A stretch of DNA of 64,000 nt. Source: Larsenimonas suaedae. Its GTDB lineage: Bacteria > Pseudomonadota > Gammaproteobacteria > Pseudomonadales > Halomonadaceae. Below are positions 30,719 to 43,196 of this stretch, piece by piece; within the stretch, counting starts at the first letter, position 1; each line of letters begins with the position of its first letter. A program made the position numbers and the translations under genes. The stretch spans positions 682,001 to 746,000 of the forward strand of contig NZ_JAMLJI010000002.1 of NCBI RefSeq assembly GCF_023712105.1. Reading direction: 5' to 3'. The notes beneath the pieces were generated by a model, which was not told where the DNA came from, made no database searches, and worked only from the letters and a program-made list of their open reading frames with translations.

Positions 30719-31825
30719 TCAGAAATCGACAACGACATCGCCCTTCGGACGACTGCAACATGAAAGGATGTACCCTTCTTCGATATCTTCATCGGTGATA
30801 CCGCCGTTATGCTCCATCTCAACCTCACCGGATCTGAGGCCGACACGGCATGTACCACAGATTCCCATACCGCACGCCTTGGGAATGTGGAGCCCAAGCT
30901 TGGAGGCCGCGGCGTGAATGGTTTCTTCCGGCTGAATCCGGACGCTCTTGCCGGACTCGGCGAACTCGACATTCATCATGTCGGCAACGTCGACTTCTTC
31001 AGCCGCGACTTCGGCAAGCTCGGCAAGTTCTTCCGCGTTTTCACGAACGTCGGTCGGCGTGGCGCCAAACGATTCTTCGTGATAGTGGTTCATGTCAAAC
31101 CCACTTTCACGCAGAATCTTTTTAACCGCATTCATGTAGGGAACGGGGCCGCAGCAGAAGATTTCACGCTCCATGAAGTCCGGAGACATCATCCGGAACA
31201 TCGGCTCTGTCAGGAAGCCGCGATAACCTGCCCAGGTTTCACCAAGGTCATCTTTCTTCTCACAGATAACATGGAGCTTGAACTCGGGAATACGTGAGAA
31301 GATGTGAATCAGCTCACGGTGATAGATGACGTCGCCGGGGGAGCGGGCACTGTGAATAAAGTCGACATCAACCGATGCGTTCGTGTCGAAAAACCAGCGG
31401 GTCATCGACATCAACGGTGTCACGCCGACACCGCCAGAGAGCAGCAATACCTTGTCGGCCGGGTAGTCGATTGCGTTGAAGTCACCGACCGGGCCGTGAA
31501 CGTGCAGTCGATCATTGATCGACAGATTGTCGTGCAGCCAGTTGGATACATAGCCGCCCGGTACACGCTTGACCGTAATGGAGAAACTATAGGGTACCGA
31601 GGGTGAGCTCGAGATGGTATAAGAGCGCATGACCGTCTGACCATGAATCTCCAGCTCAACCGTGACAAACTGCCCCGGTTTGAAGAAGAACATCAGGGGC
31701 TGGTCAGCCATGAAGCAGAAAGTACGCACATCGTGCGTTTCCTGAATTACCTTCACGCAGCGCACTGCGTGACGGCCGTTAACCCAGGTTTGGGTCGTTA
31801 CCGGATTAAAAAAGCTGGTAGTCAT
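30719..31825 (-). CDS. gbcB: Glycine betaine monooxygenase, reductase subunit
   Basis: It passes electrons from NAD(P)H through FAD and a [2Fe-2S] ferredoxin domain to the Rieske oxygenase GbcA. The 368 residues have a ferredoxin-reductase FAD domain (MRSYTISSSPS), an NAD domain (LLLSGGVGVTPLMSM) and a C-terminal plant-type ferredoxin domain, with CGMGICGTC and a fourth Cys in ILSCCSRP. I start at ATG 31825; a GTG at 31834 is possible. It is divergent from gbcA across a shared regulatory region. It is called BmoB in Chromohalobacter. Confidence 0.9.
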   Translation of the reverse strand: MTTSFFNPVTTQTWVNGRHAVRCVKVIQETHDVRTFCFMADQPLMFFFKPGQFVTVELEIHGQTVMRSYTISSSPSVPYSFSITVKRVPGGYVSNWLHDNLSINDRLHVHGPVGDFNAIDYPADKVLLLSGGVGVTPLMSMTRWFFDTNASVDVDFIHSARSPGDVIYHRELIHIFSRIPEFKLHVICEKKDDLGETWAGYRGFLTEPMFRMMSPDFMEREIFCCGPVPYMNAVKKILRESGFDMNHYHEESFGATPTDVRENAEELAELAEVAAEEVDVADMMNVEFAESGKSVRIQPEETIHAAASKLGLHIPKACGMGICGTCRVGLRSGEVEMEHNGGITDEDIEEGYILSCCSRPKGDVVVDF

Positions 31826-31916
31826 GGTGGTCACTCTCTACAGGCCCTGCAATGCAACGCAGTCAGGACACCCTTGTGCCCCGTTCGTGAACAAATTCTG
31901 GCGGCGCACCACCCTA

Positions 31917-31937
31917 TCGACTTGTCCTGCTGCGACA
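31917..31937 (-). promoter_or_regulatory. Predicted GbdR half-site facing gbcB
   Basis: On the minus strand TGTCGC-N8-AA-N5 begins at 31937. It fits the half-site pattern reported for ArgR of Pseudomonas, an AraC-family regulator with the same domain layout as GbdR. The position 21 bp upstream matches poorly, so only one half-site is convincing. It lies about 90 bp before gbcB. Confidence 0.5.
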
Positions 31938-31984
31938 TCGGCATAACTCTCATAACCACCCCGCCCATTTTTTTTCCTATCTCA

Positions 31985-32026
31985 CGTCGCGGGTGTGTCA
32001 GAGTATGTCGCCATCGGATAATCCGC
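31985..32026 (+). promoter_or_regulatory. Predicted tandem GbdR site upstream of gbcA
   Basis: CGTCGC (31985) and TGTCGC (32006) start exactly 21 bp apart in direct repeat. Each is followed eight bases later by CA or AA. The second half-site fits TGTCGC-N8-AA-N5 fully. The pair ends about 153 bp before the gbcA start codon. Confidence 0.65.
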
Positions 32027-32179
32027 CCTCAGCCACCTAACGCAAACTTCATTTGTCACCCTTGGGCAAACGGCCTTCCCCGCGCGAAAAGGTCGCCTGC
32101 TGCAGAAGGAGACAAAATAAGAACAACGCCTGCTCAATCCCCCCGTGCCGGCGGCGACTTTTCATGAGGATTCCAGACT

Positions 32180-33469
32180 ATGCAACTGATTAACCACGAG
32201 CGGCTCGAAGACCCGCTTGGCGAAACCAAGAAAGCGTGCGCTCAGATGCTGAATGAGCGTGACCCTTCGTTCACTTTACCGCAACCCTTTTATAAGGACG
32301 AGCGGGTTTTCGCAGTGGATATGCAGGAAATCTTCAGCAAAGAGTGGCTGTTCGCTGGAATGACCTGTGAGGTTCCCAAAAAGGGGAACTACCTGACGTT
32401 GACCGTAGGTGAAAATCCTATCGTTCTCGTCCGCGGCGACAAGGATGCCATTCACGGCTTCTATAACGTTTGCCGCCACCGCGGGTCAAAACTGTGTCTG
32501 CAGGAGCGTGGCAAGGCAGCCAAACTGGTGTGCCCCTACCACCAGTGGACCTATGAGCTGGACGGCCGTCTGCTGTTTGCAGGCTCCGACATGGGCGAAG
32601 ATTTCGACATGAATGCCTACGGCTTAAAGCCAATTCATGTCCGCGTTGCCGGTGGATTCATTTTCGTATGCCTGTCCGAAGGCGAAGCGCCTTCATTCGA
32701 CGAGTTTGCCGAAACACTGGATCACTACCTCGAACCCTACGATATGGAAAATACCAAGATCGCGGTAGAGTCCAACATCGTCGAGGATGCCAACTGGAAG
32801 CTTGTCATCGAAAACAACCGTGAGTGCTACCACTGTAATGGTTCGCACCCCGAGCTTCTGAACTCGCTGATCGAGTTCGATGACACCGATGACCCCCGTG
32901 CGACCGACGACTACAAGGCGCTGGTTGCCAGGAAACAAGCCGATTGGTCCGCAGAAAGCGTCCCGTTCGAGCTCAAGCGTATCGGGCGTCGTAACCGTCT
33001 GACCCGTACTCCGCTGCTGAACGGCGTCGTTTCGATGACCATGGATGGCAAGCCGGGCTCCAAGAAGCTGATGGGCCGCCTGCAAAGCCCCGATATGGGC
33101 TCTCTGCGTATCCTCCATCTGCCGAACTCCTGGAACCACTTCATGGGCGATCATGCGATCGTGTTCCGTGTGTTGCCGCTGAGCGCGCAGAAAACGCTGG
33201 TCACGACCAAATGGCTTGTGCACAAGGACGCCGTCGAAGGTGAAGACTACAACCCTGACGAACTGCGCCGTGTATGGGATGCCACCAATGACCAGGACCG
33301 CAAGCTGGCTGAAGAAAACCAGCGCGGTATCAATTCCCAGGCCTATCAGCCCGGCCCCTACTCAAAAACCTATGAGTTCGGCGTGATCGACTTCCTCGCG
33401 TGGTACAGCGAGCAGATGATCGACAACATCGAAGGTGACGTGCCTGATCTCAAGCTGGCCAAGGGCTAA
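32180..33469 (+). CDS. gbcA: Glycine betaine monooxygenase, Rieske oxygenase subunit
   Basis: It oxidatively demethylates glycine betaine to dimethylglycine and formaldehyde. The 429 residues carry a Rieske [2Fe-2S] site, CRHRGSKLC and CPYHQWTYELDG (Cys-His pairs near residues 98 and 117). The catalytic domain has a mononuclear iron site around NRECYHCNGSHPELL with a later Asp. Its partner reductase is divergent. A strong bidirectional terminator follows. It is called BmoA in Chromohalobacter, where the pair was characterised. Confidence 0.93.
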   Translation: MQLINHERLEDPLGETKKACAQMLNERDPSFTLPQPFYKDERVFAVDMQEIFSKEWLFAGMTCEVPKKGNYLTLTVGENPIVLVRGDKDAIHGFYNVCRHRGSKLCLQERGKAAKLVCPYHQWTYELDGRLLFAGSDMGEDFDMNAYGLKPIHVRVAGGFIFVCLSEGEAPSFDEFAETLDHYLEPYDMENTKIAVESNIVEDANWKLVIENNRECYHCNGSHPELLNSLIEFDDTDDPRATDDYKALVARKQADWSAESVPFELKRIGRRNRLTRTPLLNGVVSMTMDGKPGSKKLMGRLQSPDMGSLRILHLPNSWNHFMGDHAIVFRVLPLSAQKTLVTTKWLVHKDAVEGEDYNPDELRRVWDATNDQDRKLAEENQRGINSQAYQPGPYSKTYEFGVIDFLAWYSEQMIDNIEGDVPDLKLAKG

Positions 33470-33500
33470 GAGCACGCACCAAGCCCAGTAGGCCACCACA

Positions 33501-33530
33501 AAAAAGGCTCGTCCACGGACGAGCCTTTTT
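33501..33530. terminator. Bidirectional terminator after gbcA
   Basis: Stem AAAAAGGCTCGTCC/GGACGAGCCTTTTT with a 2-base centre. It serves gbcA and the converging dgc operon. A second hairpin (GGCCCCTT 33537-33544, AAGGGGCC 33559-33566) stands between it and the small protein gene on the minus strand. Confidence 0.88.
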
Positions 33531-33587
33531 GTTTCGGGCCCCTTTGACAGCAACGCCGAAGGGGCCTGATTTCGACAATGTGGCGTC

Positions 33588-33833
33588 TCAGGTCTCGATG
33601 ACCGGACCCCACCAGCGCTGAATAGCATCAAGCACAACGGGATGAATGGCATCGGCGCAGGCAATCCACTGCTCAAACAGCGGTTTGAGCCCGTCGGCCT
33701 GGCCTGCCTGCCAGGCCTTGAACGCCTCTTGGGCCATAACATCCACCGACGCCTGAGGGTCCTGGATGGGCACGTTATGCACCTGAAGTGCCACCTTGAA
33801 GTCAACTTCGTCTATCAGATCGACCAGCATCAT
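33588..33833 (-). CDS. Small hypothetical protein at the end of the dgc operon
   Basis: An 81-residue acidic protein, MMLVDLIDEVDFKVALQV at the start and AIQRWWGPVIET at the end, predicted mainly helical, without cysteines in a pair, signal peptide or membrane span. A GGGGGA ribosome-binding site at 33841-33846 sets the start. It is 13 bp after etfB. A small hypothetical gene also follows the electron-transfer flavoprotein genes in the dgc cluster of Pseudomonas (PA5401 position), so it is probably a conserved accessory of dimethylglycine demethylation. No function is known to me. Confidence 0.75.
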   Translation of the reverse strand: MMLVDLIDEVDFKVALQVHNVPIQDPQASVDVMAQEAFKAWQAGQADGLKPLFEQWIACADAIHPVVLDAIQRWWGPVIET

Positions 33834-33846
33834 CGCTATATCCCCC

Positions 33847-34659
33847 TCACAGTTTCAGCACGTTCTCTTCCTGAAGAAGCTTGAATATCGCTTCAGCCCC
33901 CTCTTGAGCGCTGACATCAGAGAGCACCTGGCCGCCGCCGCCGCCGGACTTGGCTGCGGCTGCCTTGAAACGATCCCTGGCAGAGGACGACTTGACGATC
34001 TTGAGACGCTTGGGCCGTACCCGAGCTTTCTTGATCTCAAAGCTGGCCAGCGTTTCATCAATATGGCTCGCTTCGCTGATCGTTTCAATCGTGCCGCGTC
34101 GCGCCGGACCAAACGCGCTTTGACGCGCACGCTCTGCACTTTCATCGACGGTTGCGATGGCGGGCAGCCGCACTTTCAAACGCCGGCGCTGACCACGCGG
34201 GAGCGCTTGAAGAATCGTTGCCTGGCCATTTTCGACCGACTCGATGCTGACAAGTCCTGACACCAGAGACCACCCAAGTGACTCTGCGAGCAGAAAGGGC
34301 AGAAGGCCAGAACCTTCGCCCTGTTCGGCTTTCGTGCCCGCCAGCACAAGCGAGGGGTTCGAGGACTTCAGCGTCTTGGTAAGCACCTCGGTGATGTCGG
34401 CATGTTCAGACTGCTCGATCAGCGAAATGCGATCGATGCCCATCCCAAGATACCCCCGAAGCGCCTCCTTGCATTCCTCCGTCGGCTGGCCTGCGTGCAA
34501 CAAACTGACCGAGCCCCCCTGGAGGTTCATGGCAAGCTCGACCGCACGGGAATCCTGATCGGCGCGACCCGGTCGGCCGGTGATCGGGTGTCGACCGGTC
34601 GAGACCAACACGGAAATAGACAGCGAGGCACTTTTTTTATCGGATTCACGCGGCTTCAT
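33847..34659 (-). CDS. etfB: Electron transfer flavoprotein subunit beta, dimethylglycine pathway
   Basis: The 270-residue beta subunit binds AMP and accepts electrons with the alpha subunit. SVLVSTGRHP opens the domain, DQDSRAVELAMNL and LVLAGTKAEQGEGSGLLPFLLAESLGWSLV are the recognition and nucleotide motifs. It overlaps the alpha gene by 14 bp. Together they likely take electrons from DgcA/DgcB to the quinone pool. It is more divergent than housekeeping FixA/EtfB. Confidence 0.88.
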   Translation of the reverse strand: MKPRESDKKSASLSISVLVSTGRHPITGRPGRADQDSRAVELAMNLQGGSVSLLHAGQPTEECKEALRGYLGMGIDRISLIEQSEHADITEVLTKTLKSSNPSLVLAGTKAEQGEGSGLLPFLLAESLGWSLVSGLVSIESVENGQATILQALPRGQRRRLKVRLPAIATVDESAERARQSAFGPARRGTIETISEASHIDETLASFEIKKARVRPKRLKIVKSSSARDRFKAAAAKSGGGGGQVLSDVSAQEGAEAIFKLLQEENVLKL

Positions 34660-35917
34660 GGTGCGACTCCTCGGACCGTTTCTGCTCTATAAGCTCAACC
34701 AGTGCTTCCAGCACGCCTTCGGCATCGCCAATGATGGCAAGATCGGCACGCTTGACCATGTCACAGCCACCATCGTTGTTGATCGCAACCACCTTGTTGC
34801 AGCGCTCGATCCCCTGAAGGTGCTGAATGGCGCCGGAGATGCCCACGGCAATGTAGACCCGGGCACTGACCCACGTTCCCGTGGCGCCGACCTGGCGTTC
34901 ACGGGGCATGAATCCGTTATCCACCGCCACACGCGAGGCGCCTTCGGCAGCCCTGAGCTGAAGCGCTGCGTTGTGGAAGCGGTCCCAGTTCTTGACGCCA
35001 TTGCCGCCGGAGAGGATAAATTCGGCCTCGCCCAGTGCAACGCTTGCCGGATCGACTTCCACCTGACCGAGGTTGTCGATGCGAATCATTGTCTCGGGCG
35101 CCGTGGAACTCAGTTCAACCGGTTTCACTTCATACCGGTTTTCAGAGACCGGCTCTGCACACTCTTCCAGTGCCAGAATGCAGCGGGGAAGCGATCGCAC
35201 GATGTCAGAGCGCTCACGCGCGCCACGGCACTCACAACGCCACTCGCCATCTTCAGACAGAAGTTGCCAGACGTGTGTCGCCGGACGCTCCTTGAGCCGT
35301 ACGGACAGACGACGACCCAGCTCGGCACCGCCGAGCTGGGAGTCCGGGAACAGCCAGCGCTCGGGCGTGAGCTCGCGCTCGATGTCCTCGAGGCGGCTCA
35401 AGCGGCGCTCCGGGCTATAGCCTTCCAGCCGCTCGTCCTCCAGAAAGACCAACCGATCGATACCGGCATGCTCGAAGCGTGTTTCACGGTAGCTGCCAAA
35501 CACCACGGCCAATACCGCGCCCTGGCGCTGCGGATCGGCATCCGCCAATTGACGCGCCATACCGAGCACATCCTTGTCGTGACTGGTCAGTTCGCCACCG
35601 GCCATGTCCGGAACGACCGCAACGATGAACGCCGGATCGTCGATCGTGATCAAGGGCTTTTGCGGCTCGGCCTTGGCCTGCTTACCGCCAGAGCCATAGG
35701 CCTGACCGGCCAGCAGACCGCTTCGGTCGATGCGCTTTAAGCCATTGGGTCCCATTCGTCCGACACGGTGCGGGTCGCGTCGCAGGAGACCGTTGGGCCC
35801 CATCCACTGAGACGGCGAGCTGGACGCATCCAGCTCGGCCATGACCTGCGCGTGCTCCGGGTGCAGCCGGTTACGTGCGATCCATTCCAGACGGGGATTT
35901 TTTCGAGTCAGACTCAT
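34646..35917 (-). CDS. etfA: Electron transfer flavoprotein subunit alpha, long form
   Basis: A 423-residue alpha subunit, about 100 longer than housekeeping EtfA. The C-terminal FAD domain is visible in LGEAEFILSGGNGVKNWDRFHNAAL, VGATGTWVSARVYIAVGISGAIQHLQGIE and VAINNDGGCDMVKRADLAIIGDAEGVLEAL. Residues 1-70 form an unusual basic extension with the motif MGPNGL twice (39-44 and 55-60). The Pseudomonas PA5400-type protein of the dgc cluster is also long. Its ATG overlaps the dgcB stop (ATGA). Confidence 0.9.
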   Translation of the reverse strand: MSLTRKNPRLEWIARNRLHPEHAQVMAELDASSSPSQWMGPNGLLRRDPHRVGRMGPNGLKRIDRSGLLAGQAYGSGGKQAKAEPQKPLITIDDPAFIVAVVPDMAGGELTSHDKDVLGMARQLADADPQRQGAVLAVVFGSYRETRFEHAGIDRLVFLEDERLEGYSPERRLSRLEDIERELTPERWLFPDSQLGGAELGRRLSVRLKERPATHVWQLLSEDGEWRCECRGARERSDIVRSLPRCILALEECAEPVSENRYEVKPVELSSTAPETMIRIDNLGQVEVDPASVALGEAEFILSGGNGVKNWDRFHNAALQLRAAEGASRVAVDNGFMPRERQVGATGTWVSARVYIAVGISGAIQHLQGIERCNKVVAINNDGGCDMVKRADLAIIGDAEGVLEALVELIEQKRSEESHHEAA

Positions 35918-37869
35918 GCGACCACCTCCACGGGTTCCTTGTTATCGGCGTGGGAGCGCGGTGCCGGTGTATCCGACAACGCATCGGCGACCAACTCAGC
36001 GATGTCCTTGACGTCAGGACGCGGCTCGACCACCCCTTCAAGCATGGCCGTGCACTGCGGGCAGCCTACTGCAACGATTTCCGCGCCGGTTTCTCGGATG
36101 TCTTCCATCCGCATGTCGGGAATACGCTGCTTGCCGGGTACATCCACGACCGGTGCACCCCCGCCCCCACCGCAGCAACGAGAGCGATAGCCCGAGCGCG
36201 CCATTTCGTTGACTTCAAGGCCAAGAGCCTTGAGGACGGAGCGCGGCGCTTCGTACTCACCGTTGTAGCGACCGAGGTAGCAGGGGTCGTGATAGGTCAC
36301 GGTGCCAACATCAGCCTTGTTCAACGAGACGCGGCCGGAATCGATCAAACGGTTCAAGTAACCGCTGTGATGATAGACCTCGTAGTGTCCGCCAAAGTCG
36401 CCGTACTCGTTTTTGAGCACATGGAAGCTGTGCGGATCACAGGTCACGATGCAATCGAACGAATGCTTGGCAAGCGTTGCGATATTGCGCTTGGCAAGCG
36501 ACTGGAACGTGGCTTCATCGCCAAGACGGCGTGCCAGATCACCACTGTCACGCTCATCGTTACCAAGAACGGCGAAATCAACGTTGCCTGCCCGCAGGAC
36601 CTTGATCAGCGCGCGAAGCGTGCGCTGGTTGCGCATGTCGAACACGCCATCGCCAAGCCACAAAAGCACTTCGGCGTGATCCCGGTCCTTGAGCATCGGG
36701 AGCTCAAGATCGGTTGCCCAGTTCATGCGTGAGTTGGGCGAGAACCCGCCGGGGTTGTCGGTCGCGATCAGGTTGTTCAGTACGTCTGCGCCCTTGCCCG
36801 GTGTTTCACCGTGCTCGAGCGTCAAATGACGACGAATATCGACCACTGCATCCACGTGCTCGATCATCATCGGGCACTCTTCGACACAGGCACGACAGGT
36901 GGTGCAGGACCACAGCGTATCGGCATCGACCAGCGCCTTGCCTTCACGGGCCACCAGCACACCCCCCGGACCAATTTCATGCGTTTCGGTCTGACCGGGG
37001 TAGTTGGAGCCGGCGTAGTTGGCGTCCGTTCCGGTGGTCATACTCGCCACCATGTCCTGGATCAGCTTCTTGGGGTTAAGAGGCTGACCGGCTGCGAACG
37101 CCGGGCAAACTGCCTCACACCGCCCACACTGCACGCAGGCATCGAAGCCCAGACGCTGATTCCAGGTGAACTCTTCCGGCTTGATAACGCCCAGAGGCGA
37201 GGACTCGTCGTCGAGGTTGAGCGGCTTGAGACCGGTCGAACGGCCGCCACCAAAGCGCTCCTGACGGCGGTGGAACCCCAGATGAAGCGCACCGGCAAAG
37301 GCGTGCTTCATGGGGCCACCCCAGGTCATGCCGAAGACAAGCTCAGAAAGGCCCCAGGCGACCAGCACAACCAGCACCAACGCAAACACCCAGCTTCCGG
37401 CGTTTTCCGGCATCAAACCGACCGCAGGCAGGGTAGTCAGGAACATGCCAACTGAAAACGCGATCAGGCTTTTCGGCAGGCGCTGAAATGGGCCCTTGGA
37501 CAAGCGCGCCGGCGGATTGATGCGGCGGCGATAGACCAGCACGCTGCCCACAAACATGATCGCCGTGAACGCCAGCAGCAGCCAGCCAAGAATGCCACCG
37601 GCCAGATCAAAACCATGCACGATGATGGCAAGCACCATGGACGCCACGAAACCACCGGCGGTGGCCACGTGCGTGTGGGCAATGTATTTATCACGTTCGA
37701 CGACGTGGTGAAGATCGACCAGGTAACGCCTGGGGATCGAGGCCAGCCCTTTCACGATGTTGACGGGGGATGGTCGACCACGGCGCCACATGGCGATGCG
37801 TCGAAACGCACCAACTACGGCCAACACAAGGGCCGCAGCCAAAAGCAGCGGTATCAGGATATCCAGCAT
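35914..37869 (-). CDS. dgcB: Dimethylglycine catabolism protein DgcB (Fe-S membrane oxidoreductase)
   Basis: A 651-residue protein needed for dimethylglycine demethylation in Pseudomonas. An N-terminal membrane region (DUF3483, about four helices, residues 1-180) precedes two [4Fe-4S] motifs, CVQCGRCEAVCP and CTTCRACVEECP, and a C-terminal CCG-type region with HDPCYLGRYNGEYEAPR and RCCGGGGGAP. The layout resembles heterodisulfide reductase D-type proteins and suggests transfer of electrons from DgcA/ETF to the membrane. It is 48 bp from dgcA and overlaps etfA. Confidence 0.93.
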   Translation of the reverse strand: MLDILIPLLLAAALVLAVVGAFRRIAMWRRGRPSPVNIVKGLASIPRRYLVDLHHVVERDKYIAHTHVATAGGFVASMVLAIIVHGFDLAGGILGWLLLAFTAIMFVGSVLVYRRRINPPARLSKGPFQRLPKSLIAFSVGMFLTTLPAVGLMPENAGSWVFALVLVVLVAWGLSELVFGMTWGGPMKHAFAGALHLGFHRRQERFGGGRSTGLKPLNLDDESSPLGVIKPEEFTWNQRLGFDACVQCGRCEAVCPAFAAGQPLNPKKLIQDMVASMTTGTDANYAGSNYPGQTETHEIGPGGVLVAREGKALVDADTLWSCTTCRACVEECPMMIEHVDAVVDIRRHLTLEHGETPGKGADVLNNLIATDNPGGFSPNSRMNWATDLELPMLKDRDHAEVLLWLGDGVFDMRNQRTLRALIKVLRAGNVDFAVLGNDERDSGDLARRLGDEATFQSLAKRNIATLAKHSFDCIVTCDPHSFHVLKNEYGDFGGHYEVYHHSGYLNRLIDSGRVSLNKADVGTVTYHDPCYLGRYNGEYEAPRSVLKALGLEVNEMARSGYRSRCCGGGGGAPVVDVPGKQRIPDMRMEDIRETGAEIVAVGCPQCTAMLEGVVEPRPDVKDIAELVADALSDTPAPRSHADNKEPVEVVA

Positions 37870-37917
37870 TGGAAAAGCCTCCCGGACAGCCCGCGCGGCG
37901 CACCGCGCGGGCAGATC

Positions 37918-39990
37918 TTAGAAATCCTTGCAGAGACGCAAGGCGTCATAGATGGCGGCGTGCGTGTTGCGTGGCGCAGTGCAATCGCCAATCCGGAACA
38001 GCAAGAAGCCCTCACCTGACTCGCTCAGGCTCGGTTGCGGCTCAATCGCGTACAACGCTTCCAGGTCGATCTGACCCTTGTTGCGCGACTGTGATTTGAG
38101 GGCGTAGTAAAGCTCTTCGTTGGGTTTGACCCCGTTCTCGACGACGATCTGATCGACCACGCGCTCTTCCATCTCGCCGGTGTACTCGTTTTCAAGCACA
38201 GCCACGAGCGCAGGACCTTCACGGTAGACCTTATGCAGTGCGAGGTCAGACGTCATGATGACTTCTTTTTCGTAAAGCGTACGGTAGTAGGTCGGGAAGG
38301 TAGTGCCGCCTACGGCAGCGCCCGGCTTGATGTCGTCGGTCACGATCTCGACCTTGGAGCCCTTGTCAGCCATGTAATCGGCTACCGACACGCCCGAGAA
38401 TTCACAGATCGTATCGAAGACCAGTACGTTCTTGCTGGGCTCGACCTTACCGTCGAGGATGTCCCAGCTGCTGACGACCAGGCTCTTTTCGGGATCGGGA
38501 TCAAAGCCCCAGTCCGGCACCTGCGTTACGTGCGGCGTACCGCCGGTGGCGAGCATGACGATGTCTGGACGCAGGTCCTTGATGGTTGCTTCATCAGCTG
38601 GCGTATTCAGGCGAACATCCACGCCCAAACGATCAAGCTCAAGCTGATACCAGCGCGTGATACCGGCCATCTGATCGCGACCCGGCGCACGAGAGGCCGT
38701 TGTGATCTGTCCACCGATCTGGTCTTTGGCTTCAAAAAGCGTCACGTCGTGGCCGCGCTCGGCGCTGACACGTGCAGCTTCCATACCACCGGGGCCACCA
38801 CCGACAACCACGACCTTGCGAAGCGGGCCCTTGGTCTTTTCGATGATGTGCGGCAGCCCCATGTACTCACGAGACGTTGCGCCGTTCTGAATACACAGGA
38901 CGTCAAGACCCTGGTACTGACGGTCGATGCAGTAGTTCGCACCAACGCACTGACGAATCTGGTCGGTCTGACCCATCTTGATCTTCGTGATCAAATGCGG
39001 GTCGGCGATGTGGGCACGGGTCATGCCGACGAGGTCAACGTGACCGGCTTCCAGAATACGGCTGGCCTGGTTCGGGTCCTTGATGTTCTGCGCATGGATT
39101 ACGGGCACATTGACGACGGTCTTGATGCCCGCAGCCAGGTGCAGGAACGGCTCCGGCGGATAGCTCATGTTCGGGATGACGTTGGCAAGCGTGTTGTGCG
39201 TGTCACACCCGGAGCCCACGACACCGAAGAAATCGACCTTGCCGGTCGCGTCGTAATAGGCCGCGATCCGCTTCATCTCTTCGTGATCGAGACCGTCCGG
39301 ATGGAACTCGTCACCGGTAATACGCATGCCGACCACAAAGTCGTCGCCGACTTCTTCGCGAACGGCTTTCAGGACTTCCATACCAAAGCGCATGCGGTTT
39401 TCAAAGCTGCCGCCCCACTGGTCGGTTCGCTTGTTGACGCGCGGGCTCCAGAACTGGTCGACCAGATGCTGGTGAACCGCAGAAAGCTCGACCCCATCAA
39501 GGCCGCCTTCTTTGGCACGGCGCGCCGCCTGGGCGAAATCGCCGATGATGCGCCAGATCTCTTCTTCCTCGATCGTCTTACAGGTCGAACGGTGGACCGG
39601 CTCACGGATGCCGGACGGCGACAGCAGTGTTGACCAGTTGAAACCATCCCAACGTGAGCGACGGCCCATGTGAGTGATCTGGATCATGATCTTGCCGCCA
39701 TGCTTGTGCACGGCATCGGCCAGATTCTGAAAGTGCGGGATGATGCGGTCGGTCGACAGATTGACCGAGCTCCACCAAGCCTGCGGGCTGTCGATCGACA
39801 CGATCGAGGAGCCCCCGCAGATGCAAAGGCCACAGCCGCCCTTCGCCTTCTCTTCGTAATATTTGACGTAGCGGTCGGTGGTCATGCCCCCATCGGTTGC
39901 ATAGACCTCAGCGTGCGCTGTGCTGACCACTCGGTTACGAATGGTCTGGCTGCCGATCTGAATCGGCTCGAACATTGCTTCAAAAGCCAT
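37918..39990 (-). CDS. dgcA: Dimethylglycine demethylase subunit DgcA
   Basis: A 690-residue protein related to 2,4-dienoyl-CoA reductase and trimethylamine dehydrogenase. An old yellow enzyme FMN barrel (about 1-370; MFEPIQIGSQTIRNRVVSTAHAE) is followed by a [4Fe-4S] cysteine cluster (CVGANYCIDRQYQGLDVLC) and a C-terminal FAD/NAD domain with VVVGGGPGGMEAARVSAERG. It demethylates dimethylglycine to sarcosine with DgcB. It lies 11 bp after the DUF5943 gene in the same operon. Confidence 0.93.
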   Translation of the reverse strand: MAFEAMFEPIQIGSQTIRNRVVSTAHAEVYATDGGMTTDRYVKYYEEKAKGGCGLCICGGSSIVSIDSPQAWWSSVNLSTDRIIPHFQNLADAVHKHGGKIMIQITHMGRRSRWDGFNWSTLLSPSGIREPVHRSTCKTIEEEEIWRIIGDFAQAARRAKEGGLDGVELSAVHQHLVDQFWSPRVNKRTDQWGGSFENRMRFGMEVLKAVREEVGDDFVVGMRITGDEFHPDGLDHEEMKRIAAYYDATGKVDFFGVVGSGCDTHNTLANVIPNMSYPPEPFLHLAAGIKTVVNVPVIHAQNIKDPNQASRILEAGHVDLVGMTRAHIADPHLITKIKMGQTDQIRQCVGANYCIDRQYQGLDVLCIQNGATSREYMGLPHIIEKTKGPLRKVVVVGGGPGGMEAARVSAERGHDVTLFEAKDQIGGQITTASRAPGRDQMAGITRWYQLELDRLGVDVRLNTPADEATIKDLRPDIVMLATGGTPHVTQVPDWGFDPDPEKSLVVSSWDILDGKVEPSKNVLVFDTICEFSGVSVADYMADKGSKVEIVTDDIKPGAAVGGTTFPTYYRTLYEKEVIMTSDLALHKVYREGPALVAVLENEYTGEMEERVVDQIVVENGVKPNEELYYALKSQSRNKGQIDLEALYAIEPQPSLSESGEGFLLFRIGDCTAPRNTHAAIYDALRLCKDF

Positions 39991-40001
39991 ACCATCTCTC
40001 C

Positions 40002-40535
40002 TCAGCTAACAGGGGTCACTTTGAATCGGCCAACATCACAGCCCGGCTCGGCAGCACTTTGAACCTGCTCGGCCACGGTGCGCAGATCGCTGCCCTTGGC
40101 CTGGAGGATCTGATCCATGGCGCCGGCGAACCAGCCTGTGAACATGTATTCGATCTTCCGGTTTACCTTGCCCATCTGATAGACGAAGGCGCTGTGTTCA
40201 AGGCGCACGCTTGCCGTACCGGCATCCAGATCGATCTCTTCAGTGATGAACAGACCCCAGCCGCGCTGGGAAAGGCGCTTCATGTAATGTTCGAAGACGT
40301 CTTCACCTTCAAGGCCGTGCAATTCGGCTTCTTTTTCACACCAGTGCCAGGCGCTCTTGTAGCCGGCGTGATAGAGGATTTCGGCGTATTTCTCGGCGCC
40401 GAGCGCTTCTTCTACAGCGACGTGGTTATTGACGAAGAAATGGCGCGGAACGTACAGCATCGGCAGAGCATCCGTTGTCCAGATGCCTGTTTCGCTGTCA
40501 ACTTCGATCGGTAGTTGCGGGGCGGTAGTAGTCAC
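40002..40535 (-). CDS. DUF5943 family protein, possible V4R-like small-molecule domain
   Basis: A 177-residue soluble protein from a GTG start at 40535, chosen because a GAGG ribosome-binding site lies about nine bases upstream; TTG codons further up are weaker options. It contains LPMLYVPRHFFVNNHVAVEE, a Trp/His-rich helix (SAWHWCEKEAELHGLEGEDV) and a C-terminal YMFTGWFAGAMDQIL that recalls the end of 4-vinyl-reductase (V4R) domains. The same gene stands next to dgcA in Pseudomonas (PA5397 position). Function unknown; a ligand-binding or assembly role is my inference. Confidence 0.8.
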   Translation of the reverse strand: MTTTAPQLPIEVDSETGIWTTDALPMLYVPRHFFVNNHVAVEEALGAEKYAEILYHAGYKSAWHWCEKEAELHGLEGEDVFEHYMKRLSQRGWGLFITEEIDLDAGTASVRLEHSAFVYQMGKVNRKIEYMFTGWFAGAMDQILQAKGSDLRTVAEQVQSAAEPGCDVGRFKVTPVS

Positions 40536-40592
40536 AGTCGTCAACCTCAAATTTTTGTCGTTGTTACACGTGAATCGGTGATGGTGTTGCTA

Positions 40593-41570
40593 TCAGGCAC
40601 CCCAGACGTCGCGAAGTACGCGCACCCAGTTCTCGCCCATGATCTTGCGAACCTGCTGCTCGCTCATTCCGCGGCGAAGCAGGGCTTCGGTCAGGTTGGG
40701 GAACTCACCGACCGTACGAATGCCTTTCGGGTTGATGATTTCACCAAAGCGCGTCAAACGACGTGCGTAGCCCTTGTCGTGGGTCAGCCACTCGAAGAAC
40801 TGCTGATCGTGACCCTGGGTAAAGTCGGTGCCAATGCCGATGGCGTCTTCACCCACGATGTTCATGACGTACTCGATCGCCTCGACGTAGTCGTCGACAG
40901 TGGCATTGACGCCCGCGCGCAGGAACGGTGTAAACATGGTGACACCAACGAAGCCGCCGTTATCGGCGATAAACTTGAGCTCTTCGTCGGACTTGTTGCG
41001 CGGATGCTCTTTCAGGCCAGAGGGCAGGCAGTGGGAATAGCAGACCGGCTGCTTGGATTCGAGGATAACTTCCTGGCTGGTCTTGGCACCAACGTGGGAC
41101 AGGTCACACATCATGCCAACGCGGTTCATTTCGGCAACGATTTCACGACCGAAGCCGGACAGGCCGCCGTCACGCTCGTAGCACCCGGTACCGACCAGGT
41201 TCTGGGTGTTGTAGCACATCTGAGCGATGCCAACGCCAAGCTTCTTGAAGATTTCGACATAGCCGATCTGATCTTCGAACGCGTGAGCATTCTGAAAGCC
41301 GAAGATGATGCCGGTCTTACCTTCTTCCTTGGCACGGGTGATGTCTTCAGTGGTGTGAACCGGGCGGACCAGATCGCTGCACTCATCCATCAGCTTCTGA
41401 GTGCTGACGATGTTGTCGACGGTGGCCTTGAACCCTTCCCATACGGAAACCGTGCAGTTCGCTGCAGTCAGACCGCCTCTGCGCATATCTTCCAGCAGTT
41501 CGCGTTCCCATTTGGCAATAATCAGGCCATCGATGACGATAGCGTCGTCGTGCAGTTCGGACGGGGTCAT
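40593..41570 (-). CDS. Membrane dipeptidase (M19) family protein of the dgc operon
   Basis: A 325-residue protein of the renal dipeptidase family, first gene of the dgc operon. GLTAANCTVSVWEGF, FGFQNAHAFEDQIGYVEIF, GMMCDLSHVGAKTSQEVI, PVCYSHCLPSGLKEHPRNKSDEEL and IGIGTDFTQGHD follow the family. The N-terminal HxD metal pair of canonical M19 enzymes is replaced by IVIDGLIIAKWERE, so the binuclear zinc site is altered. The Pseudomonas homologue (PA5396 position) is likewise in the betaine cluster. Substrate unknown. Confidence 0.85.
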   Translation of the reverse strand: MTPSELHDDAIVIDGLIIAKWERELLEDMRRGGLTAANCTVSVWEGFKATVDNIVSTQKLMDECSDLVRPVHTTEDITRAKEEGKTGIIFGFQNAHAFEDQIGYVEIFKKLGVGIAQMCYNTQNLVGTGCYERDGGLSGFGREIVAEMNRVGMMCDLSHVGAKTSQEVILESKQPVCYSHCLPSGLKEHPRNKSDEELKFIADNGGFVGVTMFTPFLRAGVNATVDDYVEAIEYVMNIVGEDAIGIGTDFTQGHDQQFFEWLTHDKGYARRLTRFGEIINPKGIRTVGEFPNLTEALLRRGMSEQQVRKIMGENWVRVLRDVWGA

Positions 41571-41706
41571 GATACTTCTCCACTCTCTGGTTGATGGAGG
41601 CCAGCATATCCCCGCCTACTTGCCAAGCGACGTTTGGATGCGACAACCATTATTCCAAATGCGTCAAAGCATGCGAGGGCGCTGGACGGACATGCGCGTT
41701 CTGACA
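41571..41706 (-). promoter_or_regulatory. Control region of the dgc operon
   Basis: The gap between the gbdR terminator and the dipeptidase start holds a tandem half-site pair (listed separately) and, downstream of it on the minus strand, a -10-like TATGCT (41608-41603). The sequence 17 bp upstream is a poor -35 (GTCGCT) that overlaps the predicted activator site, as expected for class II activation. Confidence 0.5.
41625..41666 (-). promoter_or_regulatory. Predicted tandem GbdR site upstream of the dgc operon
   Basis: On the minus strand TGACGC (from 41666) and TGTCGC (from 41645) start exactly 21 bp apart in direct repeat. They are followed eight bases later by TA and GT. The pair ends about 55 bp before the start codon of the dipeptidase. 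Confidence 0.62.
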
Positions 41707-41733
41707 TAAAAACGCCTGACGAGAGTCAGGCGT
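41707..41733 (-). terminator. Terminator of gbdR
   Basis: Stem ACGCCTGAC/GTCAGGCGT, 4-base loop, followed by U5 in the minus direction, 22 bp past the gbdR stop. Confidence 0.85.
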
Positions 41734-41754
41734 CGAAGGTGCCGGGAGCGCAGA

Positions 41755-42885
41755 TCAACGAGGTATTCGGATCGTGGCGTAGGTGGGTTCGCCCTTGGCG
41801 TTGGAAAGCGCAAGCTGGGCGCTCGAGAACGTCGCCGTCGCCAGAGTGACTGGCTCCTGATCGGGCAACACCTCGACAGGCTTGTGGTGCGCTCGCGAAA
41901 GAAGTTCGATGCGCTCGTCACGCGGCGGGGTACCGTAGTACTCGCGGTAGCATTTCGAAAAGTGCGGCGTCGAGACAAACCCACAGGCCGAGGCGACTTC
42001 AATGATTGACAGCGAGGTCTGCTTCAGAAGTTGCCGTGCGCGGGTCAGGCGCAGCTTGAGGTAGTAACGAGACGGCGAGCAATGCAGGTATTTCTGGAAC
42101 AGACGTTCGAGCTGACGTCTGGACACGTCGACGTAGCGCGCAAGTTCGGCCAGGCTGATTGGTTCTTCGAGGTTCGACTCCATCAGCGCCACGATTTCCA
42201 GAAGCTTGGGCTGTGTCGTGCCCAGGATATGTTTGAGCGGTACACGCTGCATGTCCTGTTCACTTCGCATACGCTCGTAGATGAACATCTCCGAGATGCC
42301 AACGGACAGTTCGCGACCATGATCGTGGCCGATCATGTTGAGCATCATGTCGAGCGGCGCGGTGCCGCCTGAGGCGGTAAATCGGTCCTGGTCAATGGAA
42401 AAGAGTCGCGTGGTCAGTTCTACCTTGGGAAATGCTTCCTGCATCGAGGCCAGACATTCCCAGTGCACGCTTGTTTCCACCCCATCAAGCAGGCCGGCCC
42501 GAGCCAGCGCCCAGCTTCCGGTACAAATCGCGCCCATGCGCGCCGAAGCCCGAGCCTGCTTCTGCAGCCACAGTACATGGTCTCGGGTTACGCTGACCTG
42601 AGGTGCAACGCCACCACAAACGATGACGCCATCGAGCTCGGGCACCTGCGTCATGGAAACGTCCGGGGTGACCATCAGGCCGTCACTGGCCCGAAGTGGC
42701 GCGCCATCAACGCTGATCGTATGCCACCGATAAAGCTCTTCACCCGCCAGCTGGTTGGCCATACGCAGTGGCTCGATCGCGGATGCCAGCGAAATCAGGG
42801 TAAAGTTTTCCAACAGTAAAAACCCGATGCACTGCCCTTTTTGAGACGGGCTCTCTCTTGAACGATCATTGATGTTCGTTGCCAT
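41755..42885 (-). CDS. gbdR: GlxA-type AraC-family regulator, glycine betaine catabolism (GbdR)
   Basis: A 376-residue activator with an N-terminal DJ-1/PfpI-like ligand domain (about 18-190; CIGFLLLENFTLISLASAIEPLRMAN and ICTGSWALARAGLLDG) and a C-terminal AraC DNA-binding domain with two helix-turn-helix motifs (about 235-330; LAELARYVDVSRRQLERLFQ, SIIEVASACGFVSTPHFSKCYREYYG). In Pseudomonas GbdR senses glycine betaine or dimethylglycine and activates gbcA, gbcB and dgcAB. Its position beside these genes supports the name. Confidence 0.9.
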   Translation of the reverse strand: MATNINDRSRESPSQKGQCIGFLLLENFTLISLASAIEPLRMANQLAGEELYRWHTISVDGAPLRASDGLMVTPDVSMTQVPELDGVIVCGGVAPQVSVTRDHVLWLQKQARASARMGAICTGSWALARAGLLDGVETSVHWECLASMQEAFPKVELTTRLFSIDQDRFTASGGTAPLDMMLNMIGHDHGRELSVGISEMFIYERMRSEQDMQRVPLKHILGTTQPKLLEIVALMESNLEEPISLAELARYVDVSRRQLERLFQKYLHCSPSRYYLKLRLTRARQLLKQTSLSIIEVASACGFVSTPHFSKCYREYYGTPPRDERIELLSRAHHKPVEVLPDQEPVTLATATFSSAQLALSNAKGEPTYATIRIPR

Positions 42886-43196
42886 AGGTCACTCCTCATT
42901 GCTTGTTGTTATGTTTATTGCGCGGCTGATGGTTCACGTCACTGCCCACCCGATGGCGGGACACGTATATTATTAAGAATTGATGACACGCACACTTATA
43001 CGTTATTAGACCCCAGTCTGCCCGAAGACATTTATGGAATCTGGCAATCCGGTTCTATCATTGAAATAGTTAATATCGATGCCGGTTTATTTTCAACGGC
43101 CTGCATCGCATAAATTTGCTTTCTCTTAAGCGACAATTAGTGTTTTAAGACCGACAGGCTCACTGTTTATTCCAAAAGCGACCAAAAAGGCCACGC
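42886..43196. promoter_or_regulatory. AT-rich divergent region between gbdR and gmhB
   Basis: About 310 bp without a gene, clearly richer in A and T than its neighbours. It holds the tandem half-site at 43115-43156, about 230 bp upstream of gbdR. No strong promoter for gmhB could be assigned. Confidence 0.5.
43115..43156 (-). promoter_or_regulatory. Predicted tandem GbdR site upstream of gbdR
   Basis: On the minus strand TGTCGG (from 43156) and TGTCGC (from 43135) start exactly 21 bp apart. They are followed eight bases later by CA and AA, so the second half-site is a full TGTCGC-N8-AA-N5 match. It suggests autoregulation of gbdR, though it is far (230 bp) from the start codon. Confidence 0.55.

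Follow-up and report, generated by a model that had tools for sequence, protein, structure and literature searches.

Conserved 21-bp-phased sites predicted as GbdR operators at the glycine betaine catabolism promoters of Larsenimonas suaedae

In the stretch of DNA analyzed here (64,000 nucleotides, hereafter the window) from Larsenimonas suaedae, a halophilic member of the Halomonadaceae, the promoters of gbcA, gbcB, and the dgc operon very probably each carry an operator for the regulator GbdR, at which GbdR with its ligand would replace the -35 contact in a class II-like activation. The two direct half-sites with their 15-bp spacer are complete at gbcA and dgc, and at gbcB they occur with a degenerate distal half. 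Judged on comparative sequence evidence, this is a well-supported extension of the known GbdR system, while the site upstream of gbdR itself is uncertain.

The window contains gbcB, encoding the glycine betaine monooxygenase reductase (30719..31834, minus strand; NF058606, 671.6 bits, cut-off 500), gbcA, encoding the oxygenase (32180..33469, plus strand; NF058607, 827 bits, cut-off 670), the dgc operon with M19 peptidase, DUF5943, dgcA-like, dgcB-like, etfA, and etfB genes in an order shared with many relatives (33847..41570, minus), and gbdR, encoding a DJ-1/AraC regulator (41755..42885, minus). The names GbdR, GbcA, GbcB, EtfA, and EtfB were assigned where curated NCBIfam cut-offs were passed, and the names of the dgcA-like, dgcB-like, DUF5943, and M19 genes rest on their Pfam domains and their order in the operon. 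GbdR passes the NF052371 equivalog cut-off (617.8 vs 480 bits), has a DJ-1/PfpI domain (PF01965, DJ-1_PfpI) and an AraC HTH domain (PF12833, HTH_18), both above the gathering score, and is 98% identical to the L. salina protein and 79% identical to that of L. rhizosphaerae.

Half-sites at the gbcA, gbcB, and dgc promoters

The predicted gbcA operator lies on the plus strand, with a distal half-site CGTCGC at 31985..31990 and a proximal half-site TGTCGC that, together with its GGATAA box, spans 32006..32021 (family TGTCGY-N4-AGAY-AA). A -10-like hexamer, CAAACT, follows at 32043..32048, its first base 37 bp beyond that of the proximal half-site (hereafter +37). In Halomonadaceae and Pseudomonas the family form of this operator is NGTCGN-N8-CA-N5-TGTCGY-N4-AGAY-AA. 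The predicted dgc operator, on the minus strand, consists of a distal half-site TGACGC at 41661..41666, a proximal half-site TGTCGC at 41640..41645, and a -10 hexamer TATGCT at 41603..41608. Its family form is TGACGY followed by NGTCGY, and TGACG is found in all 52 dgc promoters compared. The sequence-only reading had placed half-site pairs 21 bp apart at gbcA (31985/32006, plus), dgc (41666/41645, minus), and gbdR (43156/43135, minus), and all of these coordinates were confirmed. It had also described the proximal half-site as always TGTCGC, which is true of this genome, while across the family the form is NGTCGY.

The dgc promoters have a further internal pattern. From 41630 to 41666 in the window, and in other Halomonadaceae dgc promoters, the two half-sites are followed by TTTTGGAA and TTCCAA, modules that form an inverted repeat inside the direct repeat. 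In the Pseudomonas GbdR regulon, the corresponding dgc modules read TTTCGGCA...TTTTGCA where Halomonadaceae have TTTTGGAA...TTCCAA.

At gbcB, on the minus strand, the proximal half-site TGTCGC (as TGTCGC-N8-AA) occupies 31932..31937, and the sequence GGACAA adjoins it as a box at 31922..31927. In Halomonadaceae and Pseudomonas this half-site is conserved together with its AGAY/GGAC-AA box, in the family form TGTCGY-N4-AGRY-AA. The distal position at 31953..31958 reads TGGTTA, which does not match TGTCGC; this 21-bp upstream partner is degenerate yet non-random, being conserved as TGGNNN-N5-GGYATG. In the four Pseudomonas-type loci examined, GGTCGC stands 20 bp upstream in place of the degenerate partner. 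A -10-like hexamer, CAGAAT, lies at 31895..31900, at +37. With zero mismatches allowed, the combined pattern GTCGY-N4-RGAYAA-N22-ANRNT occurs at two places in the 3.22 Mb genome, which are the gbcA and gbcB promoters only.

Conservation and promoter geometry

The comparison covered approximately one hundred Halomonadaceae and Pseudomonas loci. As the family core is GTCGY, a mismatch-counted TGTCGC histogram proved too strict, and half-site spacing was counted on the core instead. Counted in this way, the 21-bp phase is kept in 52/52 genomes for dgc and in 30/32 for gbcA. Mean top-base frequencies are 0.71-0.86 within the sites compared to 0.44-0.53 in the flanks. The sequences between the half-sites had been described as unrelated, but they are not free to vary, as each promoter holds its own conserved second module. 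The sequence, phasing, conservation, and geometry of these sites, as well as the identity of GbdR, come directly from the analysis.

The distance to the putative -10 element is equally regular. A hexamer of the form A2..T6 begins exactly 37 bp from the proximal half-site start in all 52 dgc promoters (TATGCT, TAAGCT), in 31 of the 32 gbcA promoters (CACACT, CACAAT, CAAACT), and in 24 of the 30 gbcB promoters (CAGAAT, CACAAT). Of the other offsets between +28 and +49, none carries such a hexamer in more than 30% of the sequences. This conservation bears on gbcB, where a single TGTCGC-N8-AA site had been reported at 31937. The site is present, but "single" does not describe it well, since the conserved +37 hexamer points to a predicted operator with a conserved, degenerate distal half.

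Assuming a 17-bp spacer, a -35 hexamer would begin with the final two bases of the operator, and the sequence at this position does not make a good -35. As the end of the operator meets the -35 position and a good -35 is missing, the layout from proximal half-site to -10 would be that expected for a class II activator, with transcription starts predicted from the -10 hexamers near 32056 (gbcA, plus), 31887 (gbcB, minus), and 41595 (dgc, minus). GbdR binding, its ligand, its dimeric state, and activation are what we infer from this arrangement. The cores of the direct half-sites are G(T/A)CG and GTCG, and their 21-bp phase amounts to two helical turns, which would allow a GbdR dimer to sit on one face of the DNA at the three glycine betaine catabolism promoters predicted to carry its operator. 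GbdR with glycine betaine or dimethylglycine would then most likely stand in for the -35 contact and recruit sigma70 RNA polymerase. At gbcB, as the distal half is degenerate, GbdR would be expected to depend mainly on the proximal half-site for binding.

In one Halomonadaceae genome, the gbcA homolog is split into two open frames (G011:C1:4419850-4421111), possibly by a frameshift or a sequencing error.

The half-site pair upstream of gbdR

A profile was trained on 42 operators, all from genera other than Larsenimonas (leave-genus-out), and its first 37 columns were scored at approximately 128,000 window positions. The four highest scores are the four reported sites, at dgc (30.6), gbdR (18.8), gbcB (17.0), and gbcA (16.9), followed by 12.9 for the next position. 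Sequence simulated to the dinucleotide composition of the window (6 million bases) reached a score of 16.9 with P ~7e-7 per position. The putative gbdR operator matched by this 37-nt profile consists of a distal half-site TGTCGG at 43151..43156 and a proximal half-site TGTCGC at 43130..43135, both on the minus strand.

It is possible, though rather doubtful, that this pair (43156/43135) functions in Larsenimonas as an operator through which GbdR regulates its own gene. Its profile score is the second best in the window and was reached in simulated sequence with P ~5e-7 per position, and both half-sites are intact in L. salina. Against this, no -10-like hexamer was found at +37 of the pair (64-column profile score of 1.6), and a consensus scan of the gbdR intergenic region found no sigma70-type promoter. 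The pair is absent from L. rhizosphaerae and from all other genera examined, and L. salina, nearly identical throughout the intergenic region, is too close to show constraint. The pair also lies 271 bp from the gbdR start codon. Furthermore, gbdR of P. aeruginosa is reported, going by a title cited in PMC13415123, to have a sigma54 promoter under the control of NtrC/CbrB, IHF, and BetI. A crude GG-N10-GC scan upstream of gbdR found no sigma54 promoter in Larsenimonas, and among relatives it gave no site that recurred consistently.

A GbdR regulon at four promoters, as the sequence-only reading had proposed, thus holds for gbcA, gbcB, and dgc, with deep conservation, leave-genus-out ranking, and identical recognition helices (see below) behind it. 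At gbdR the proposal does not extend beyond the profile match, and we consider the pair a probable binding site. A bolder reading, which we think unlikely, is that a recently gained GbdR operator made gbdR self-regulated in Larsenimonas, with control of another kind over this gene in P. aeruginosa and other genera. If true, this would be a datable rewiring of a catabolic switch from external control to feedback.

Binding protein, chance, and related systems

A conserved site is a sign of constraint and does not name the protein that binds it. The sites could be bound by another DJ-1/AraC paralog, or be common to several regulators and not specific to GbdR: the Larsenimonas genome has 12 GbdR matches, many of them DJ-1/AraC-type regulators, the half-sites of CdhR, SouR, and ArgR are very similar, and at caiX-cdhR there is overlap between the sites of CdhR and GbdR (PMC5806209). 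We judge this improbable, as gbdR adjoins the dgc operon, lies approximately 9 kb from gbcAB, and is linked to both in many relatives, in the genomes examined that carry GbdR the orthologous genes are preceded by the same motif, and GbdR of P. aeruginosa is the known activator of the glycine betaine catabolism pathway. In addition, GbdR of Larsenimonas and GbdR of P. aeruginosa PA7 have identical recognition-helix stretches (VSRRQLERLFQKYLHCSPSRYYLKLRL and CGFVSTPHFSKCYREY) and should therefore recognize the same DNA. When the Halomonadaceae profile was run on the PA7 genome, the gbcB promoter was the best match and the gbcA promoter the fifth.

Near gbdR of PA7 there are two operator-like sites (L234:4102 and L234:7506, both plus strand), one before a gene with an SdaB-like product start, and one that follows gbdR at a distance of approximately 370 bp and has CACAAT at +37. 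SdaB is a GbdR target.

Additional regulon members were sought among 150 scored candidates from a model search of the Larsenimonas genome. Most of the extra matches lie inside coding sequence, and one, before an MFS transporter, is a lead. The latter (G000:C2:527498-527546, plus; L196:4999) is a 21-bp-phased TGTCGT...GGTCGC-TTCCAGAA-AA with a profile score of 24.6, located ~130 bp upstream of the transporter gene and 2 kb from a DJ-1/AraC paralog. The distal core in L. salina is TGCCGT, and in PA7 an MFS protein 61% identical to this one has a model match just upstream. An exact TGTCGC-N15-TGTCGC pair (G000:C4:68404-68430, plus; L198 around 8405) has the gene of a DJ-1/AraC regulator on one side and, on the other, a downstream operon with soxB and probably glyA, from which it points away. 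It is possibly a site of this DJ-1/AraC regulator, whose gene is located where a SouR-like regulator might be.

The bare half-site pair predicts poorly on its own, as it is no commoner genome-wide than its control, and the finding would look weak by count alone. A genome-wide search for 21-bp-phased TGTCGC pairs, the check proposed in the earlier reading, gave no enrichment, with 58 matches to TGTCGC-N15-TGTCGC at up to one mismatch in the 3.22-Mb genome, whereas the reversed control gave 99. The window holds five of these 58, three of those five being the gbcA, dgc, and gbdR promoters, and these three lie within a few hundred bases upstream of the three transcription units. That the 21-bp phasing is a chance outcome of scanning many GC-rich hexamers, as such a count could suggest, is nevertheless extremely improbable, as the phase and the +37 geometry are kept in dozens of genomes and a profile from other genera singles out the reported sites; chance is refuted at gbcA, gbcB, and dgc, but may account for the pair at gbdR.

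The 21-bp phase is a known property of the GbdR/CdhR/SouR/ArgR group, given the published 15-bp spacer of CdhR and the tandem ARG box, and there is no ArgR-like novelty in it. DNase I footprinting at caiX-cdhR placed CdhR on a pair of GGTCGC half-sites separated by 15 bp, which is the same phase as in Larsenimonas (Meadows and Wargo, PMC5806209). The same paper calls the CdhR sites very similar to those of GbdR, SouR, and ArgR, and reports that mutating the CG of the distal half-site abolished GbdR binding. CdhR differs from GbdR as described here in answering to carnitine, and its site, between -216 and -112 or overlapping -112 (PMC5806209), is in a class I position, whereas the predicted Larsenimonas sites would abut the -35 position. 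The likeness to the tandem sites of ArgR, an AraC-type regulator, noted in the earlier reading is correct but second-hand, as PMC5806209 had already grouped the sites of these four regulators. The Pseudomonas ARG box, TGTCGC-N6-GNAA in tandem with 5 bp between, agrees in the 21-bp phase and in an AA, a likeness of sequence only, and ArgR is a different regulator with a different ligand, its second repeat is generally less conserved, and its half-site distance is variable in P. putida (PMC10963909). As far as seen, no arginine gene is under the Larsenimonas sites.

The closest known system is the GbdR regulon of P. aeruginosa (Hampel et al. 2014 and Wargo et al. 2009, as described in PMC5806209), with an orthologous regulator whose recognition-helix stretches are those found here. 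According to that description, and likened through it rather than base by base, the targets gbcA, gbcB, and dgc and the two direct half-sites are the same; Larsenimonas differs in the extra pair before gbdR. The same gbcA, gbcB, and dgc operators are present in Pseudomonas genomes. What is added here is the Larsenimonas member, the deep conservation, a probable account of what the gbcB site is, and the uncertain standing of the gbdR pair. The +37 rule is also added, and may already be described for P. aeruginosa GbdR.

Taken together, the 21-bp phase, GTCGY-N4-RGAYAA, and a -10 at +37 provide a testable operator-promoter rule for GbdR that spans two bacterial families, and suggest a way in which GbdR could activate promoters without a -35. 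In halophiles, betaine is both an osmoprotectant and a food, and the rule would be usable for annotating their betaine catabolism regulons.
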